Below are positions 2,565-15,457 of a DNA stretch of 30,572 bases, in pieces; the first letter of the stretch is position 1; each line of letters starts with the position of its first letter. Made by a program: the position numbers and the translations under genes. The stretch covers positions 1-30,572 of the IMG/VR virus record IMGVR_UViG_3300046462_000381. The stretch is one strand, 5' to 3'. The notes under the pieces were generated by a model. It ran no database searches. It was not told the origin of the DNA and saw nothing but the letters and a program-made list of their open reading frames with translations. The DNA is from a virus.

Positions 2565-4289
2565 CTACACCGGGACATTGAAGCTCTTGAGCCAATCGTC
2601 GCTCGGGGTGCCGCGGTTGAGCGTCGCCGCGTGGTCGACGGCCAGCGCCGGATCGCCCGGCTTCGGCAACAGCCCGACCATCGCTTTCAACGCCGCGATC
2701 TCGCGGATGCCGTCATGCGCGACGCCGGCCTGGTCGAGCGCGAAGCGGTAGATTTCCTCCGCGCTGTCGGCGGCGCCGGTGAAGTCGGCGACATAGGGCA
2801 ACACGTCGGCCTTGGCTTGCGCGATGCCGTTGAGCCGCGCGATCACGCGATCTTCGGTATCCTTGACCGCCTTCTTGATCGCCGCGTCCATTGCCCCTCG
2901 GTCCATGCCTGGCCTCTTGTCCTTTGCGCGCATCACCCGGTCGGCGGCCTTGGCCTTGCGGTCCTCGGCCTTTTCCTCGTCCTCGCGCTTCTTCTTTTCT
3001 TCCTCGCTCTCGTCGTGGCCGAGTTTCCGGCGCGCATCGTTGGCGCGACGTACCTTGCGGTCGCGCGCCTCCATGCGCTTCTTCTTCTCCTCCTCGGTCT
3101 CGGGGTCTTCGTCGGCTGCGGCATCGAGGCCATGCTTGCGGTCCTCGGCGCGATCCTCCATGCGCTCGGCGCGCTCCTCCTCGGTCTCGGTCTCGTCCTC
3201 GGCGCCGTCGTCCATCTCCTCGTCGCCGACGATGGCGTCGAGGCTGTCGAGCAGCCGGTGAATTTCGTCCGGTTCCGGCTTCGCGTCGTTCGCCAGTTTG
3301 ACCTTGCCGAGCGCGGTCGATAGCGCGGTGGCGAGGCGCGGCTTACGCTGCAGCCAGTTCTTCGCCGTGGTGTCTTTGAGGATCGCGGTGATGCCGGTCG
3401 CGTCGAGTTTGGCGTCGGCCGCCAGCCTCGGCGAGACGAAGCCGGTGATCGCGCCCAGCGCGAGGGTGGCCCGGTGCGAGGTGCGAGGCTTCACCGCCAT
3501 GATAAAATCCCCTTGTCCAAGCTGCGCATCTCCGACAATGACATCCGGCCCGGCTCTCCCGGCCTCAACGAGTGCAACGTGATTACCATATATCGCGGTC
3601 ATCCTACCATCATAATCTACACCTTGATGCTCGCCCGGCGTCATGTCGGCGGTGTAGCGGTAGGACGACGACAACTCGCGCTTCTGGCCGCTATCGACGC
3701 CGGCCTGCGACTCGTCATCCCAAATGACCAGCGTGTTGTCGAGATACGGGTTTATGAACTCGGTATCCGTGCCGAGAGAGCCGACGCGCAAGTCCTTGCT
3801 CGGCTCCGCGCTCGACTGCGGAACGTGGCGCGTCAACAATGGCAGATTGTTGAAGGTCGAGGCACCCTTGGCAAGCTCGGCCGGATCACGGAACAGCTTG
3901 TAAAGTTTGTCCGCATCCAACCCAAGCCGCTCGTAATCGGGGATTTCCCGGCCCCAATACGGATTTACACATGCTTTCGAGATATGGCAGCGGATATGCA
4001 AAAATCCGTTCGCATCGTATTTGCGAGCGGACTTCGGGCCAAGATCGATCTCGAATTTGTCGAAGGCCAGACCATCGACGGCATGTTCTTTTTCGTCGCT
4101 TTCCTCTTTCAGCCACTCGCTGATCAGGCGCGACAATTCCTCGAATTTTTCGCCGCTCATATCTTTGGCATCAACGCCGGAAATCTTGCCGGCATTGCGG
4201 CTCGCGTAGAAAACCTCTTTGCCCTTGGCCTCGCCATACTCGGATTGCATCCGAGCGAGGATTTCCGAGCCTTTGGCGGTTAGGGGCAT
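2565..4289 (-). CDS. Capsid maturation protease fused to scaffold domain (DUF2213-like)
   Basis: This 574-residue protein probably scaffolds the procapsid and cleaves head proteins. Residues 1-40 form a short module with Y-G-E-A-K-G-K-E-V-F-Y-A-S-R-N-A-G-K-I-S-G-V, often found in phage structural proteins. About 85-270 matches the DUF2213 family (FLHIRCHISKACVNPYWG; N-N-L-P-L-L-T-R-H-V-P; E-L-S-S-S-Y-R-Y-T). About 335-475 is extremely rich in E, D, K and R with repeated T-E-E-E-x-x-x-R-M-E units, as expected of a helical scaffold. The C-terminus contains a helical A-D-V-L-P-Y-V region. It overlaps the upstream SLOG gene by 10 bases. I did not identify catalytic residues with certainty; protease function is from family knowledge. 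Confidence 0.85.
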   Translation of the reverse strand: MPLTAKGSEILARMQSEYGEAKGKEVFYASRNAGKISGVDAKDMSGEKFEELSRLISEWLKEESDEKEHAVDGLAFDKFEIDLGPKSARKYDANGFLHIRCHISKACVNPYWGREIPDYERLGLDADKLYKLFRDPAELAKGASTFNNLPLLTRHVPQSSAEPSKDLRVGSLGTDTEFINPYLDNTLVIWDDESQAGVDSGQKRELSSSYRYTADMTPGEHQGVDYDGRMTAIYGNHVALVEAGRAGPDVIVGDAQLGQGDFIMAVKPRTSHRATLALGAITGFVSPRLAADAKLDATGITAILKDTTAKNWLQRKPRLATALSTALGKVKLANDAKPEPDEIHRLLDSLDAIVGDEEMDDGAEDETETEEERAERMEDRAEDRKHGLDAAADEDPETEEEKKKRMEARDRKVRRANDARRKLGHDESEEEKKKREDEEKAEDRKAKAADRVMRAKDKRPGMDRGAMDAAIKKAVKDTEDRVIARLNGIAQAKADVLPYVADFTGAADSAEEIYRFALDQAGVAHDGIREIAALKAMVGLLPKPGDPALAVDHAATLNRGTPSDDWLKSFNVPV

Positions 4290-4639
4290 TGGATAACCTC
4301 GATGCCGCGCAGACGCGCGCGTTCGATCATATCCGCCGTACCGCGCCCGCCGAGAAACGCTACTACCAAATCAGGTTTGCCGTCGTCGATCATTCGCTGA
4401 TTGCGCAACGGCCCCGCCGCCCTGCCGTATTTCTGCCATTCTGCAACAAACGGCGCTTGCGTGATTTTCTGCGCCGACGCCATCATTTGCGCCCAGATCA
4501 TTCCTTGATGATCCGCGCCCGTCGCCGCGCCGTGAATGACACATGTAATCGGACCGCGATCGGCATTAATGCTCGTCAGCGTATTCCAGATGTGATCGCT
4601 GTCGTTGTAATCGCGGCCGCCGCAGACAAGAACGCGCAT
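4280..4639 (-). CDS. SLOG-superfamily protein (DUF2493/YspA-like)
   Basis: This 119-residue protein starts MRVLVCGGRDYNDSDHIWNT. That opening, the H-G-A-A-T-G-A-D loop (about 56-63), the A-x-W-x-K-Y-G-R-A-A-G-P-L-R-N-Q-R-M region and the terminal V-V-A-F-L-G-G-R-G-T segment are typical of the DUF2493 branch of the SLOG superfamily. SLOG proteins have a Rossmann-like fold thought to bind nucleotides or nucleotide-derived ligands. The protein is complete for that family. It sits between the minor head protein genes and the protease-scaffold, overlapping the latter by 10 bases, so it is made late with virion proteins. The role in the phage is unknown; a structural function or modulation of host nucleotide signalling would be speculation. 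Confidence 0.88.
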   Translation of the reverse strand: MRVLVCGGRDYNDSDHIWNTLTSINADRGPITCVIHGAATGADHQGMIWAQMMASAQKITQAPFVAEWQKYGRAAGPLRNQRMIDDGKPDLVVAFLGGRGTADMIERARLRGIEVIQCP

Positions 4640-4649
4640 TCGCCAAACC

Positions 4650-4805
4650 TCAATGGATCAGCCGCGTCACGTCGCCGAACAGCAGCGAGGCGAAAAAACA
4701 CGCCAATGCCGCGCCGATGAAATTCAGCCGCGGCGGATTGGGAATTTCGACCGCCGCACATACGGCGAAGACAAAGGCGAAAACGAGGAGGATTGTGCCG
4801 AGCAT
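4650..4805 (-). CDS. Small two-helix membrane protein (51 aa)
   Basis: This 51-residue protein starts MLGTILLVFAFVFAVCAAVE. Residues 1-18 form one hydrophobic helix. A short polar link with two prolines follows, and a second hydrophobic stretch (about 28-45) ends before D-V-T-R-L-I-H. The ATG at 4805 overlaps the stop of the 34-residue gene upstream (TGATG), which decides this start over one 60 bases further upstream. A small late-expressed membrane protein could be a holin-like or inner membrane protein, but its place among head genes gives no direct support. Function unknown. Confidence 0.65.
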   Translation of the reverse strand: MLGTILLVFAFVFAVCAAVEIPNPPRLNFIGAALACFFASLLFGDVTRLIH

Positions 4806-4909
4806 CAGTCGAACTCCACCAAAAGCGCAAACCCACACGCCCATTTGCCCGACTTGGGGAACCACGCTATCCAGCCAAAGTCATATTTCCACTCGATTTC
4901 GATCGGCAT
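4805..4909 (-). CDS. Tiny protein (34 aa) between head genes
   Basis: A 34-residue frame starts at ATG 4909, overlapping the MuF-type gene's stop by one base (TGATG). It ends at a TGA that itself overlaps the next ATG at 4805. The peptide begins MPIEIEWKYDFGWIAWF and is rich in aromatic residues (four W). The double one-base coupling is the main evidence that it is translated, since a chance frame would not fit both junctions. No family recognised. Confidence 0.55.
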   Translation of the reverse strand: MPIEIEWKYDFGWIAWFPKSGKWACGFALLVEFD

Positions 4910-5763
4910 CACTCAAACCCCGGAATGATCGGCCGCGCCACGCATCTGCAATTTATGAGCGTACCGGGCCACACATATTCGCCCTCATCAGGGTCAAACC
5001 ATCCAGTAGCAATAGCATATCTGATGCGATCTCTACCAGCCTTGACATGGCTCGGGCGCGGCACCTTACCGGCGTGCGAGTGAACCCAAACCGCCTCTGT
5101 GATGCCGAGTTCCTGCTGGCGCACCCGCGTCACGACCGCCGTCGCCTTGTTGTTCTGATCGCGCGAAATCAGAGCCGCTCGGCGGCGCGTCACGCCGTAT
5201 TCGTATTCAATCGTTCGCGCCAGCGCGCCAAGATCGCGCCCCATCTGCACCGAGCGCATGACGTGGCCTTCGACCTGCGTCAAATATTCGCTCGGGATCG
5301 ATTTGATAAGGCTGACATTCTCGCCGATCGTCGCCCGCAACGCATCGTTGACCGCGCGCGTCGTCTGGAACCGCACGGTAAAGCCGGCCCGGCGCAGCGA
5401 AGCACGCAATGAGGTATCAGAGCGATCCTTGACATTGATCGCAAACCAGCGTGCCAGGTCGCCGGCCAGATCCGAAAAGCGGCGCTCCCAGCGCGAGCGC
5501 AATTCGCGCAGCGCATCGAGCAGGGTGCGAGCGGGCGAGGCATCCCGCGCCAGCTTGGCAATCTCCGGCTCGTTGGCGTCGTAATGAAAGCCGATCCAGT
5601 AGAGAACCGAATGGTTCATCTCGTCGATCAGCGCGTCGAGCTTGCGGCGATATTCGTACTCGATGCCGACATTCGCGCGCGTCGGCGCTAGCGCGATCGG
5701 CTTGCCGGTTGGCGAGATCAACGGCCACCAGTTCGCGCGCACCTCGCGCAAAGGGCAAGGCAT
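4909..5763 (-). CDS. Minor head protein, MuF / SPP1 gp7-like
   Basis: This 284-residue protein is probably an internal minor capsid protein located at the portal vertex. The C-terminal part carries the MuF-type signature: W-V-H-S-H-A-G-K-V-P-R-P-S-H at about 227-240, then G-W-F-D-P-D-E-G-E-Y-V-W-P-G-T-L-I-N-C-R-C at about 255-275. That block keeps the conserved His and Cys residues of the family. The preceding region is mostly helical with an R-D-Q-N-N-K-A motif. A stop codon directly precedes the ATG at 5763, fixing the start. The gene lies downstream of the portal gene, as is usual for the family, although two signal-peptide proteins intervene here. Confidence 0.9.
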   Translation of the reverse strand: MPCPLREVRANWWPLISPTGKPIALAPTRANVGIEYEYRRKLDALIDEMNHSVLYWIGFHYDANEPEIAKLARDASPARTLLDALRELRSRWERRFSDLAGDLARWFAINVKDRSDTSLRASLRRAGFTVRFQTTRAVNDALRATIGENVSLIKSIPSEYLTQVEGHVMRSVQMGRDLGALARTIEYEYGVTRRRAALISRDQNNKATAVVTRVRQQELGITEAVWVHSHAGKVPRPSHVKAGRDRIRYAIATGWFDPDEGEYVWPGTLINCRCVARPIIPGFE

Positions 5764-11368: not shown

Positions 11369-11677
11369 GTTTTTTCACATAGCATGGCATCACGCGCAAA
11401 TCAACACAACCTTGACCCTTTTCGCAGTTTCGTCAAAACACGCATAGGGCGATCTTGACGAAAGATGTCGTTGATATAAAAGGATAATTTACCTTTCGTC
11501 ACTTACGTCATTTCGTCATCTATATACCCTCTGAAATCGGGAACACCCCCAAACGAGAACGTATATAGAACATTCCATCTTTACTATATATGATGAATGA
11601 TGAAAGTGATGAAAGGTATAGGTATATATATAAATCAATAACTTAATGGCAATCTTTCGTCAAAACTTTCGTCAAGG
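11369..11677. promoter_or_regulatory. AT-rich intergenic island: late promoter region, possible origin
   Basis: This 309-base stretch has no convincing gene and is far richer in A+T than its surroundings, with runs such as TATATATATAAAT near 11622-11635. It holds dispersed TTTCGTCA/TGACGAAA words (listed separately) and three spaced TGATGAA words near 11591-11612. On the minus strand, TTGACG at 11663-11658 followed after 17 bases by TATTGA could be a weak promoter for the packaging and head operon. The combination of easily melted DNA and repeated short words also fits a phage replication origin. Both readings are inference. Confidence 0.6.
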
Positions 11678-11691
11678 TCATTTTGACGAAA
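11428..11691. repeat. Dispersed TTTCGTCA/TGACGAAA octamers (seven copies)
   Basis: TTTCGTCA occurs at 11428-11435, 11494-11501, 11511-11518, 11655-11662 and 11667-11674. Its complement TGACGAAA is at 11456-11463 and 11684-11691. A related TACGTCA lies at 11504-11510. The copies at 11666-11675 and 11683-11692 form a perfect 10-bp inverted repeat with a 7-base loop. Seven exact octamers in 264 bases is far above chance. They could be iterons for an initiator, operators for a repressor, or promoter parts, since TTGACGAAAG contains a -35 hexamer. Confidence 0.85.
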
Positions 11692-12048
11692 GTGTCGCTT
11701 CTGCGGCGAGGATGGCGTTGCCGATCAGCGTCGCGATCTGCGGGACGATGGCGTTGCCGATGGCTCGATTTCGGTCCAGTCCATTGGAAAGCCCATTAGC
11801 GCCTCCGTAAAGTTCGGATGGATTCTCCAACCGTGTTCGCCAATAAGACCTTGCACGCGCAAAACTGTCGTTTGTTTGTATCGACCAGTGCGATCGTGTC
11901 GCGGTACGCCAAAACCCCTGCGATCCATAGATGCCGTTGGAGTAGGCCACAACGAACACTCTGCGTCGCATATGTGCGGTATTATGGCGCAAATCCCTAC
12001 GAAGGGGAATCGGCCGCCCGGCGCGCCCTCGGGTGGCATTTGTAACAC
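11678..12048 (-). pseudogene. Cytosine-C5 methyltransferase C-terminal remnant
   Basis: One frame (stop at 11678) contains M-R-R-R-V-F-V-V-A-Y-S-N-G, matching C5-MTase motif VIII. It ends with G-L-S-N-G-L-D-R-N-R-A-I-G-N-A-I-V-P-Q-I-A, matching the motif IX/X end of the family. A second frame over the same bases (stop at 11725) contains S-L-W-P-T-P-T-A-S and N-F-T-E-A-L-M-G-F-P-M-D-W-T, also typical of phage cytosine methylase C-termini. A frameshift inside one ancestral gene would explain both. Motif VI (ENV) and everything between PCQ and motif VIII are absent, and the N-terminal half lies at 12837-13130 beyond foreign genes. I therefore treat it as a broken gene. Confidence 0.7.
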
Positions 12049-12084
12049 GAAAAAGCCGGGGTGCGTGTGGTGCGCAACCCCGGC
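12049..12084 (-). terminator. Rho-independent terminator, leftward
   Basis: On the minus strand, GCCGGGG (12084-12078) pairs with CCCCGGC (12061-12055). An inner TGCG/CGCA pair and a 7-base loop extend the stem to 11 bp with one bulged base. TTTTTCG follows immediately (12054-12048). This is a textbook intrinsic terminator for leftward transcription. It lies between the cargo genes and the methyltransferase C-terminal remnant, so a transcript from the N-terminal side would stop before the remnant. Confidence 0.85.
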
Positions 12085-12124
12085 CGTATCGTGGTACCCG
12101 CACTGGATTGAGACCGTCGCGGGC

Positions 12125-12263
12125 TAGCACTTGGTACACTCCAACATTGGAGTCATCTGCTTAGAAGTCAAGGACGGTCTTTCCTAACAGCGAGCATCAG
12201 GGATGCTCCGCTGAACGAGGGAGTACCGTCTAGTGAGTCAGTACGACGTTATCCGACAAGCGA
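12125..12263. other. Non-coding segment with nested hairpins
   Basis: No gene is seen. ACTCCAA (12138-12144) and TTGGAGT (12147-12153) form a 7-bp inverted repeat with a 2-base spacer. GACGGT (12173-12178) pairs with ACCGTC (12225-12230). Inside this, CAGCG-AGCATC (12188-12198) pairs with GATGCT-CGCTG (12202-12213) with a single bulged C and a 3-base loop. The nested arrangement could be a folded RNA, a recombination end or a boundary of the inserted segment. No known RNA family was recognised. Confidence 0.5.
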
Positions 12264-12428
12264 TCATTCGTATTTCCAAGCGGCGTATTCCGTAGCGCGT
12301 TCCCGCGCATCTGGGCCAGCAAAGATCGCCACGTCTACGCCGCCATCGCCGTCACTGTTGATCTTCTCAACCCGCCACGCGTGAGGATCGTCTCGATCTT
12401 GGACAACTTCGGCCGGAAACTCCTTCAT
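12264..12428 (-). CDS. Small cargo protein (54 aa), rhizobial-type
   Basis: The 54-residue protein begins MKEFPAEVVQDRDDPHAWRV. Its AGGGAG ribosome-binding site about 8 bases before the ATG at 12428 favours this start over one 42 bases upstream. The pattern D-P-H-A-W-R-V-E then V-A-I-F-A-G-P-D-A-R-E-R-A is one I associate with small proteins of unknown function that are frequent in Bradyrhizobium-like genomes. It is not a phage family I know. With the neighbouring 146-residue gene it sits inside the disrupted methyltransferase locus, upstream of a strong terminator. Function unknown. Confidence 0.65.
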   Translation of the reverse strand: MKEFPAEVVQDRDDPHAWRVEKINSDGDGGVDVAIFAGPDARERATEYAAWKYE

Positions 12429-12477
12429 CGCAACGCTCCCTAGCTTCGCATTGGCAAACGATTCTAACACGGGATCG

Positions 12478-12918
12478 TCACGACTCCGCTTGCAAAACCA
12501 GCTTCCAGCGCACGCCGCGACCGTTCCCGATCTTCTCGACGGTGCCAGCCTTCCGCAGATCGTGCAGCGATACGAGAATGCGGCGCGTGAAGTCGGTTCG
12601 CTGCTTGCGATCCGCTTCCGGGTCTAGACCCTTCTCCCGCATCGCTCGCACGGTCACGTCGTCGGCACGGATCGTGCCCAACTCCCGCAACAGGTCATAG
12701 CAGCGTCGAGTAATCTCGTTGCGCCCGAAGAATGCGGAGCGCACTGGCATCCGACCCTTGGTCGGTATGTCTGACGGTTCCTCGCCGTAGAGCTTCAAGA
12801 CCATATCGACGTGAAACAGATCGGCCTGGAGCTTGTCTAGCTGGCGGCGCAGATCAACGATCTGGCCGGCAAGCGCAGACCGCTTCTGCCGCAAACCTGG
12901 CAGGGAAATCCTCCGCAC
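12478..12918 (-). CDS. Coiled-coil plus winged-helix-like cargo protein
   Basis: This protein of up to 146 residues starts at a GTG that lies inside the methyltransferase fragment's motif IV codons. Residues about 9-45 (L-R-Q-K-R-S-A-L-A-G-Q-I-V-D-L-R-R-Q-L) are a coiled coil. About 62-146 looks like a winged helix (R-S-A-F-F-G-R-N-E-I-T-R-R-C-Y-D-L-L-R-E-L-G-T-I-R-A-D-D-V, later L-R-K-A-G-T-V-E-K-I ... V-R-W-K-L). This layout is familiar from small uncharacterised proteins common in Bradyrhizobium-type chromosomes and plasmids. The natural start may have been lost at the junction near 12895, in which case the present GTG is fortuitous. A DNA-binding role is inferred from the fold only. Confidence 0.6.
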   Translation of the reverse strand: MRRISLPGLRQKRSALAGQIVDLRRQLDKLQADLFHVDMVLKLYGEEPSDIPTKGRMPVRSAFFGRNEITRRCYDLLRELGTIRADDVTVRAMREKGLDPEADRKQRTDFTRRILVSLHDLRKAGTVEKIGNGRGVRWKLVLQAES

Positions 12919-13130
12919 AGGACATCGGGAACAATTACGTCTGCCTGGAGTTTGGTATTTGCGAGTTTCGTGATGTCTTCATATTGTTTTACCTCAGGCC
13001 AATGCTTTGCCAGCACGCGACGGCAGAATGGCTCAATCTCGCAGAACGCAATTGTTTTGAAACCTCCCGTTCTTTCCAATCCCAGCGAGAAGCCGCCGAT
13101 CCCGCTGAAAAGATCGAGAACTTTCAGCAT
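12837..13130 (-). pseudogene. Cytosine-C5 methyltransferase N-terminal fragment
   Basis: Starts MLKVLDLFSGIGGFSLGLER, which is C5-MTase motif I (SAM binding). It continues through a motif II-like A-F-C-E-I-E-P-F-C and reaches motif IV V-L-C-G-G-F-P-C-Q at about 71-78, including the catalytic cysteine C77. After Q78 the homology stops: the next 19 residues belong to the coding sequence of the inserted coiled-coil gene read in another frame, ending at TAG. The fragment lacks motifs VI to X. Its ATG overlaps the end of the Prim-Pol gene by 7 bases, the original operon position. It cannot be active alone. Confidence 0.8.
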
Positions 13131-15457
13131 GGACGATAAATACGCAGCGTGCGTCCATTGGTTTTCTGTTCGTCGAGCCTGATTTGATCGCCCTCCATAA
13201 GATCACGCAGGATTTCCATTCGCCGCCGTCCATCGAGAGATTGCGTCCTGCGCGTGATGTCGTTCTGCGTGATACCGGATTTCCCGCTTCCGGCGATAAT
13301 GCTCAGAACTTTCTTCAGTTCCGTCTCTTTGTCGTTCTCGCTGACATGCTTGTCCACGCCCTCGGTCATCGCTTTGATGCAGAAATTGACGATGGTTTCG
13401 GCCCACTCGACATCGGCGATATTGATTTCGGGATTGGCGGGTTCGCGCGAGATTGCGCAGGTGAGGGCAACGCGGATAATGTTCTCGTGCCAGCGCGCCA
13501 AGATCGCGCCGTGCCCGTTGCCGATCGCCTCGCGCCGCTTGGCGAAAACATCATCGGCGAGTTCCTCGATCCGATCGTTTGCCGAATTGGTATAAAGAAC
13601 CATATGAGGGCACGGATCGACACTCGGTCCCTCTCCCAAGGCCGGCGGTTGCCACGCGGCGGCCCCGCGCACTATCGAGTTGGAGAAATCTAAAAGATCA
13701 TCTCCAATCGCAGTAATGTCACGCGGCGCCCGGTTACGCTCAGGAACCGGATCGTCCGTAGGAAACAATAACCATCGAGCCAAACTGCCGTCATCGGCTG
13801 ATCCTCCGCGCAAGGCATCCCAGAAATGCTTTGGCACTGTGGTCGCGTGCATGACGCAGCAGGGTTGCATGATATCTTTTCGCGGATTGTCCTGCTGGTT
13901 GGCATATTCCCCTCCTGCGAATGGGCGATGGGCGGATGTCGAAAGCTCGGTCAGATTGTCCCATATCTCCGCAACGAATTTGGAACTCATGCGCGGATTG
14001 GTGACGTGTTTCAAGAAGCGCCCGAACTCGTCGATCTGGAACAACGACGAGGGCGATCGATAGAGAGCGGTCAACAATCCCGAGCCGGATACCAGCTTGT
14101 TGCCGCCGATAAAACGCGAAAGACCAGCCTGTAGAAAAAGGGTCGTGATAACGCCGCGCGCGTGGTCTTTGCCGGCTCCGCTTTCGCCGATGGCGCAGAT
14201 GTAGAGGTTGGTTCGCACATTAGTCATGCTCCTGTAGCGCCGTCCGGCAAGCACGCCGACCGCGGCGAGGGCGGCACCGACCGCGAAGATCGGTTGCGGA
14301 TGAATGGCGGAAGCCAACGTGTGTTCGACAAATTCGCTGATGAAACCCTGCGGAAGCTGCTTGCGAAAAGCATCGGGAACAAATATGTTTTCCTCGCCCG
14401 GCGCGATGACGCTCGGGACATCGGAGCCGGGGGAGACAGGGCGCGCCTGATCCAGTAGAAGCTGTGCTGGATGATTCCCCGGCTCCAGCATTATTGCTTC
14501 GCCGTCCATCGTCAGTTCAGCAGGACATACCCAGCCGGCGTTTTCGGCGAGGTAGTAGATGGTCCCCGCGCCGGCCGAGTGGATCGCGCCGAAGCCGCGC
14601 CAGGTCTTCAGCGTATAGGCCGGCTCGTCCTTTTTGGATTTGGCCGACCAGCGGCAGAAGATATCGCACCCGGCATCGCCGATGGCACCCTTGACGGCGA
14701 GGCCGATGCGGACCCAATCATCCCAGATGGCATCATCGTTGGGCAGGAACTCCAGGGCCGAGCGGATAGCCTCCGCGGTGCCGCGCAGGCGCCCGGTGAC
14801 GATGCGTTCGCGCTTCTCGCCCTCGCCGTTGGCGACGAGCCTTGTGCGTCTCAGCGAGGTCGGGACGAGCGCGTAAGCCGCCTCGCCGAAGGCGCGCGCC
14901 TGGTCCTCGGTAATGGCCGGAAGTTCGCCGATATGCGTGTCGGCCAGACCCTCGTTCGGCCACTCGTAGGGGCGGCCGGTCTCGGGGTGCAGCGCGTAGG
15001 CGACAAATTGCTGACCGCGCGCGAGGATCTCGATCGGGTAGTATTCCTTGATGCCGCCGAATGCTGTTGTGGCGCGATAGACAAGCAGGCGCTTGGGAGC
15101 CATGCCGATGCGCAGGCACGGACTGTCGCCGAGCATCTCACGCGCCAACGCCTCGACGGCGAGCGCGATGGCCGCATCCTCGACGATGTCGATGTCGATG
15201 GCGACGACGTTGCCGGTGGCGATGCCGATCGCGCAATCCGGCCAGCGCGACCAGCTCGCCGCCTCGATCAGGGTTGTGGGGCGGATGCCGTGCTTCTGCC
15301 AGCCGGAATAGGGGCGCCACTCGCCTTGGGTGAAGTTGCCGGGATACTTGGTGCCGGGCCGGATCGGCAGAATATTGTATCCAAGGTCGACGAGGCGCGA
15401 ACCGAGCGCGGCCATGTAGGACGACGATTGCGGCCCGCCGCCGTTTGCCTCCACCAT
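13124..15457 (-). CDS. Prim-Pol primase/polymerase with helicase-like ATPase domain
   Basis: This 777-residue protein is likely the phage replication primase-helicase. The N-terminal Prim-Pol domain (about 15-200) has the paired acidic A-I-D-I-D-I at 87-91 and an R-L-L-V-Y-R strand. A PriCT-2-like domain follows (about 225-300; A-I-R-S-A-L-E-F-L-P-N-D-D near its start). About 355-720 is a DUF3987-like ATPase with Walker A G-E-S-G-A-G-K-D at 424-431 and Walker B L-F-Q-I-D-E-F-G at about 472-479. The C-terminus (about 715-777) looks winged-helical. It would prime and unwind at the origin. The downstream methyltransferase ATG overlaps its end. Confidence 0.9.
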   Translation of the reverse strand: MVEANGGGPQSSSYMAALGSRLVDLGYNILPIRPGTKYPGNFTQGEWRPYSGWQKHGIRPTTLIEAASWSRWPDCAIGIATGNVVAIDIDIVEDAAIALAVEALAREMLGDSPCLRIGMAPKRLLVYRATTAFGGIKEYYPIEILARGQQFVAYALHPETGRPYEWPNEGLADTHIGELPAITEDQARAFGEAAYALVPTSLRRTRLVANGEGEKRERIVTGRLRGTAEAIRSALEFLPNDDAIWDDWVRIGLAVKGAIGDAGCDIFCRWSAKSKKDEPAYTLKTWRGFGAIHSAGAGTIYYLAENAGWVCPAELTMDGEAIMLEPGNHPAQLLLDQARPVSPGSDVPSVIAPGEENIFVPDAFRKQLPQGFISEFVEHTLASAIHPQPIFAVGAALAAVGVLAGRRYRSMTNVRTNLYICAIGESGAGKDHARGVITTLFLQAGLSRFIGGNKLVSGSGLLTALYRSPSSLFQIDEFGRFLKHVTNPRMSSKFVAEIWDNLTELSTSAHRPFAGGEYANQQDNPRKDIMQPCCVMHATTVPKHFWDALRGGSADDGSLARWLLFPTDDPVPERNRAPRDITAIGDDLLDFSNSIVRGAAAWQPPALGEGPSVDPCPHMVLYTNSANDRIEELADDVFAKRREAIGNGHGAILARWHENIIRVALTCAISREPANPEINIADVEWAETIVNFCIKAMTEGVDKHVSENDKETELKKVLSIIAGSGKSGITQNDITRRTQSLDGRRRMEILRDLMEGDQIRLDEQKTNGRTLRIYRPC

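Follow-up and report, generated by a model that had tools for sequence, protein, structure and literature searches.

What has become of a phage cytosine-C5 methyltransferase gene when its two ends lie apart, with a gene of bacterial type between them? The question is raised by an IMG/VR virus record, analysed here over its whole stretch of 30,572 bases (the window), in which the methylase remnants are found on the minus strand. The original prediction was that the centre of the methylase had been replaced by a foreign segment. The remnants, the gene upstream and the two junctions are the following.

13124 to 15457, minus strand: DNA primase gene, upstream (PHROG 3022, 2.2e-72; Prim-Pol PF09250).
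12897 to 13130, minus strand: N-terminal piece of the C5 methyltransferase, motif I to PCQ, 78 codons (PF00145, PHROG 363).
12896 to 12897: left junction, from the PCQ codons of the methylase to the cargo (methyltransferase homology ends at 12897; start of the similarity to the bacterial contig L088, see below).
12033 to 12042: right junction zone, from the end of the cargo to methylase-derived sequence (tblastx to the phage relative L107 and extension by eye).
11696 to 11974, minus strand: C-terminal piece of the C5 methyltransferase, motif VIII to X, in the methylase frame (ORF 12139-11678; PHROG 363 positions 203-319 and in-frame homology).

The N-terminal piece has motif I and the catalytic PCQ, and matches the profiles PF00145 (2.4e-18) and PHROG 363 (1.5e-29). 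Its homology to intact phage methyltransferases is unbroken from 13130 to 12897 and stops at or just past GGFPCQ in nearly all relatives compared, which bears out the abrupt end predicted near 12897. From there the frame reads 19 codons into foreign DNA, to a stop at 12837, so that the present ORF encodes 97 aa. The methylase start and the primase gene overlap by 7 bases.

The C-terminal piece reads HMRRRVFVVAY (motif VIII) ... DRNRAIGNAIVPQIATLIGNAIL, with GNAIVPQ as motif X, and its in-frame homology is to the same intact proteins that are matched by the N-terminal piece. A separate piece with motifs VIII and X beyond a gap had thus been rightly recognised, and its location stands; its extent does not, as it starts further back. 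By tblastx against L107 the similarity is secure from 11994, a reading by eye of GGRFPFVG / NGRLFPLAP pushes it to about 12033, and in another frame, open and conserved from 12048 to 11725, it extends back to about 12033-12048, adjoining the terminator of the cargo. An AT-rich gap at this remnant and immediately beyond it holds a cluster of the word TTTCGTCA, with some inverted pairs, of iteron- or operator-like aspect: its 7 copies in the window all lie within 11428-11691, 1.3 are expected, and none of 100 shuffles reached 7.

Alignment to intact phage C5 methyltransferases, proposed with the prediction for locating the breakpoints, placed the left one at 12897 and the right one, in the methylase frame, at 11974. 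On the intact 249-aa protein of L036, the two pieces align to residues 1-79 and 154-243, leaving about 74 codons absent; on that of L012 (310 aa), they align to residues 1-78 and 275-309, plus a short match at motif VIII. The loss between PCQ and motif VIII amounts to about 60-75 codons, motif VI (ENV) included, the count being about 74 by L036 and fewer if the right end read by eye is correct. Intact relatives therefore confirm that the methylase is split, with motif VI and the intervening segment absent. Compared with the phage orphan C5 methyltransferases (PHROG 363 / PF00145 / TIGR00675 dcm), the window has motif I, PCQ, motif VIII and GNAIVPQ, and both ends match intact members; unlike the intact proteins of PHROG 363, its centre is deleted and replaced, and no continuous frame leads to motif X, the pieces being in different frames. 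Sequence comparison identifies the two pieces as both ends of one intact phage-type cytosine-C5 methylase, the centre of which was replaced non-homologously. The methylase must lack activity, since motif VI and the segments beside it are missing and the ends are not in one frame; read-through cannot therefore restore the enzyme.

An assembly chimera is ruled out, because contigs from other samples contain the junctions. Both junctions recur in three other samples (contigs L002/L006, L004 and L008; 99.76-99.98% identity), and the left one in a fourth (L007). All these sister contigs are 99.76-100% identical to the window, from which they differ by 2 SNPs and one 23-bp deletion; since a single study and a single population may have yielded them all, they speak for the assembly and not for independent evolution. 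The suggestion that recombination had used a short homology around TCCCTGCCAGG did not hold. This 11-mer consists of the conserved PCQ codons plus a G and offers trivial microhomology at most: it is single-copy, a search of the whole window giving no second copy at the other junction. Insertion mediated by repeats was rejected, since no convincing repeat pair is found at both junctions either. Illegitimate recombination would be the default mechanism of the replacement.

In place of the lost codons stands a foreign block of about 0.86 kb, with the following features.

12478 to 12918, minus strand: cargo ORF of 146 aa, with an N-terminal coiled coil and a winged helix, and a GTG start at 12918 inside the methylase (L088 match, AlphaFold, Foldseek).
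12822 to 12844: 23-bp deletion polymorphism in the sister contig L008 (contig comparison).
12264 to 12470, minus strand: small ORF of 68 aa, 54 aa from an internal ATG (two weak genome hits).
12100 to 12240, minus strand: hairpin-rich stretch between the ORFs and the terminator (fold z -2.1, weak).
12042 to 12097, minus strand: intrinsic-terminator-like hairpin closing the cargo, GCCGGGGT..ACCCCGGC then TTTTT (inverted repeat; -32.5 kcal/mol, z -4.4).

The best match of the 146-aa protein, at 78% amino acid and 75.6% nucleotide identity, is on contig JAKAFA010000180.1 (L088), from a metagenome-assembled genome (MAG) labelled only 'Proteobacteria bacterium'. Identities of 31-34% were found on Skermanella and Rhodovastum plasmids, and of 26-37% in 8 further genomes of the class of the L088 MAG. 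Judged by these matches, the protein is of an alphaproteobacterial-type family. Together with the matches to intact methyltransferases, the 78% match to a bacterial gene supports the predicted exchange of the methylase centre for a foreign segment carrying a bacterial gene; the specific link to Bradyrhizobium did not survive, given the unspecific label of the best match, the Skermanella and Rhodovastum matches that follow it, and the mere two weak hits of the 68-aa ORF. On L088, an ORF at 4407-5369 resembling an IS1595-type transposase adjoins the bacterial homologue of the cargo gene, and the Skermanella record matched by the cargo protein has an annotated IS1595 transposase under a match.

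Similarity to L088 starts at 12903 when translated and at 12887 at the nucleotide level, and methylase similarity ends at 12897. Because the one starts where the other stops, the cargo gene seems shorn of its own first codons and to restart at the GTG in the methylase. AlphaFold predicts a long N-terminal helix and a winged helix (pLDDT 75), and the top Foldseek matches of this model are winged-helix proteins, although weak (best E 5.6e-3).

The rest of the cargo is less distinct. The 68-aa ORF gave two weak matches only, in genomes of the L088 MAG's class, and none among phage and plasmid sequences. A search of the hairpin stretch against Rfam gave nothing credible, and a tRNA search found none; the small ORF and the hairpin RNA stretch could be chance features. 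The terminator hairpin 12097-12042 was not listed by a terminator consensus scanner, which allows loops of 3-8 only. The predicted content of two small genes, a nested hairpin and a strong terminator is accordingly right for both ORFs and for the terminator, and doubtful for the hairpin stretch at its z of -2.1. No promoter-like site was found in the cargo by a scan for the sigma-70 consensus.

The replacement thus removed the codons between PCQ and motif VIII; with the winged-helix/coiled-coil gene came a small ORF and a terminator. The primase gene (13124-15457) is the probable entry of the transcript into the N-terminal piece and the cargo, which would now depend on the primase operon upstream for its transcript and on the GTG within the methylase remnant for its translation, transcription ending at the cargo terminator. 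A foreign gene with its own terminator, the combination looked for in phage morons, is present here, and the ORF is intact. The cargo may tentatively be seen as a selected moron, its winged-helix protein being for example a regulator of host or phage genes, and this would be compatible with the replacement; we hold it for possible, with the odds somewhat against it. No promoter was seen by the sigma-70 scan, and the deletion in L008, which may be either a true variant or an assembly error, takes out the stop of the methylase piece, so that remnant and winged helix form a single ORF of 209 aa. With the free ORF put out of frame in L008, the 146-aa protein is not fixed as a free product.

Phage methylases are known to host homing or splicing insertions, out-of-frame HNH genes included (PMC11855218), and the present one is located at a conserved active-site motif. 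That the cargo is such an element (an intein, an intron, or an out-of-frame HNH gene as in ShiLan), from which a functional methylase is still made, is nevertheless highly improbable and largely refuted: the family searches gave the cargo no match to HNH, LAGLIDADG or inteins and none to intron-like RNAs, and the loss of about 60-75 host codons means that this is no clean insertion. Because these codons were replaced, excising the cargo would not rebuild the enzyme. The ShiLan domain is an out-of-frame HNH insertion in a mycobacteriophage methylase, which carries a nuclease and leaves the methylase frame open (PMC11855218). The window resembles it in having a foreign segment, with an ORF in another frame, in a phage methylase. 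It differs in that the methylase centre is replaced, in that no nuclease is present, and in that the overlapping frame to which we now turn lies in the methylase core itself.

The C-terminal piece is open in two frames, that of the methylase and a second one, which also has a counterpart at the end of the N-terminal piece.

12895 to 12925, minus strand: start of the overlapping +1-frame ORF, ATG at 12925, MSCAEDFPAR... (match to the conserved MSxxEDSxAxxS of relatives).
11725 to 12048, minus strand: C-terminal part of the overlapping +1-frame ORF, LWPTPTAS ... EALMGFPMDWTEIEPSATPSS (PHROG 31772, 3.4e-6; PHROG 1008, 5.3e-6).

L107, the closest relative, encodes an intact methylase of 236 aa (1936-2646) and has another ORF in +1 across nearly the same DNA. 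Decay of the C-terminal piece by frameshift, considered as the origin of its second frame, was dropped, both frames being intact in L107. Between the window and L107, the overlap is 79% identical in the alternative frame and 60% in the methylase frame, and the substitutions fall 38/14/16 at methylase codon positions 1/2/3, as for a gene read in the alternative frame; L108 and L109 agree with this. Elsewhere on L107, a 783-aa terminase-like ORF (2958-5309), read by eye, seems to hold an intein-like insert that begins right after GNQNGK (Walker A) and ends in ...AGVIHHNT.

The conserved MSxxEDSxAxxS start of the relatives usually lies 6 codons before the F of FPCQ. The window holds no complete alternative ORF: it has kept the start at 12925 and the end at 12048-11725, and the middle is replaced. 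Because this ORF is severed by the insertion about 10 codons in, with its last 100 or so codons beyond the insertion, the replacement broke two genes at once. The possibility, raised against the original prediction, that the C-terminal piece belongs to an independent conserved gene is thus correct in part, since a conserved overlapping +1 ORF ends in this piece and is better conserved than the methylase frame.

Is this +1 frame a real gene in the intact relatives? Synonymous codons were permuted with the protein sequence and codon usage held fixed, the statistic being a long open +1 run. In the relatives the frame was open beyond what the methylase protein and its codon usage account for: among 50 representative phage methyltransferases, the run was longer than expected in 49 at P≤0.05 and in 40 at P≤0.01, against 9 of 144 control genes of the same contigs and none of 18 chromosomal C5 methyltransferases at 0.05. 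Its median share of the methylase gene was 81% in phages, 18% in the same-contig controls and 19% in cellular C5 methylases. Stops in the +1 frame pile up before and after the run, which in many relatives begins at the ATG 6 codons before the F of FPCQ; others have GTG or TTG instead, or no start within 15 codons of FPCQ. In a single one of the 18 chromosomal C5 methylases (L150) the +1 frame is open throughout (248 codons, P 0.085), with an MGFP-like motif; this methylase is perhaps a prophage gene.

That selection acts on the alternative frame's amino acids was seen in the shift of codon positions, in the suppression of fourfold changes and in pairwise similarity. In 24 disjoint pairs, the shares of substitutions at methylase positions 1/2/3 pass from 25/16/59% before the alternative ORF to 37/24/39% inside it, the recognition region being more extreme (41/28/31%), and the change at fourfold sites falls from 0.38 to 0.22. 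In distant pairs, amino acid similarity in the +1 frame exceeds a codon-shuffle null with a median z of 3.1, compared with 1.5 for the +2 frame. Because shared ancestry gives the +2 frame a certain excess identity as well, most weight rests on the codon-position test. In a reciprocal search with one alternative-frame protein, 593 of 600 candidate stretches encode relatives, and of the 79 loci read, 71 show no more than a single stop in the -1 (methylase) frame along the alternative ORF, the third frame having a median of 10. At the level of sequence, the intact phage relatives hold a second protein-coding frame in +1, which opens shortly ahead of PCQ, extends almost to the end of the gene and is under selection.

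It could be argued that a long open +1 frame is a by-product of codon and amino acid constraints and no gene at all. Open +1 frames arise more easily than +2 ones in some genes, and the alternative protein has no confident fold. This is very unlikely: the permutation fixes both protein and codon usage, cellular C5 methyltransferases are without signal, the codon-position shift and the reduced synonymous change require selection in the other frame, and in several pairs the alternative frame is better conserved than that of the methylase. The reading we favour, with a probability of about 0.82, is that a non-homologous replacement wrecked a C5 methylase and cut an overlapping +1 gene, a frame under selection in relatives.

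Relatives of the alternative frame were found by tblastn in phages of Mycobacterium, Streptomyces, Microbacterium, Escherichia, Salmonella, Vibrio, Rhodobacter, Sulfitobacter, Bacteroides, Porphyromonas and cyanobacteria, the host groups being Proteobacteria, Actinobacteria, Bacteroidetes and cyanobacteria. Annotation of the two frames varies. The RefSeq record of phage K1G (L122) has both overlapping frames, 1080-1904 and 1168-1860, as 'DNA methyltransferase', ORF30 lying inside ORF31, and in Vibrio phage 1.236.O the alternative frame alone is annotated. The alternative ORF of L107 matches PHROG 1008 ('DNA methyltransferase') at 7.4e-24 and has no Pfam domain. PHROG 1008 and ORF30 of K1G are the +1-frame protein, and the label of the family was probably carried over from the overlapping frame.

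Blocks that recur in the alternative protein are SxEDSxA, WKTSQ, SGMMRNG, GLWPTPTA, LNPxWVEWLMGFPxGWT and SETPSSRKS. AlphaFold gave no confident fold (pLDDT 57.5, pTM 0.27, with only the C-terminal end above 70), a weak model that fits a partly disordered, overprinted protein. We infer that the product may be an accessory protein of the phage, translated from an internal start of its own and working with or on the methylase.

The +1 frame might instead provide an alternative C-terminal half of the methylase, with target recognition and the motif IX-like LMGFPxGW, reached by frameshifting, so that one locus would encode two enzymes. Some loci point that way. In Streptomyces phage Lilbooboo (L123, 990-2046), gp32 in frame 0 stops after motif VIII, and gp33 in +1 has LLPTPT..., LMGLEPGW and ...SPEFAEWLMGLEPGWV...IGNGVVP; we read the pair as a split or frameshifted methylase, GNGVVP being motif X-like. 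In L108 (3585-4274) and L218 (1392-2468), the N-terminal part of the methylase is joined in frame to the alternative C-terminal part, the C-terminal part of the methylase being in another frame; these joins are frame-switched natural variants or sequencing errors. The recognition region is also where substitutions track the alternative frame most strongly. We consider this unlikely, as the alternative frame is open and conserved from before PCQ, overlaps motifs IV-VIII and usually has an internal start, as for a separate gene. More speculative in its reach is the combined proposal that tailed phages of at least four bacterial phyla keep an unrecognised gene of 150-350 codons on their C5 methylase, and that some join the frames to make two methylases with two target specificities; we put it forward as a long shot.

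Rz/Rz1 of phage λ is cited as a case of overprinting (PMC9409062). Like the +1 frame described here, it is a gene lying wholly within another frame of a phage gene; here the overlap is much longer (about 150-350 codons), involves an enzyme with active-site motifs, and has a very wide distribution among phages. In the open-access literature, the scope of our search, no paper describing the overlap of methylase and +1 frame was found. As the search covered that literature, and as the depositors of K1G evidently saw both ORFs, 'not described' is provisional.

Taken alone, the replacement is ordinary phage mosaicism, and the overlapping frame matters more. To our knowledge, long same-strand overlaps in dsDNA phages have rarely been described. 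This one sits on a textbook enzyme in many phage groups, and sequences suffice to study how a catalytic domain comes to carry a second protein in another frame. The name 'DNA methyltransferase' is probably wrong for one PHROG family, and gene callers choose either frame arbitrarily. Knock-outs of the methylase in phages may delete a second protein as well.
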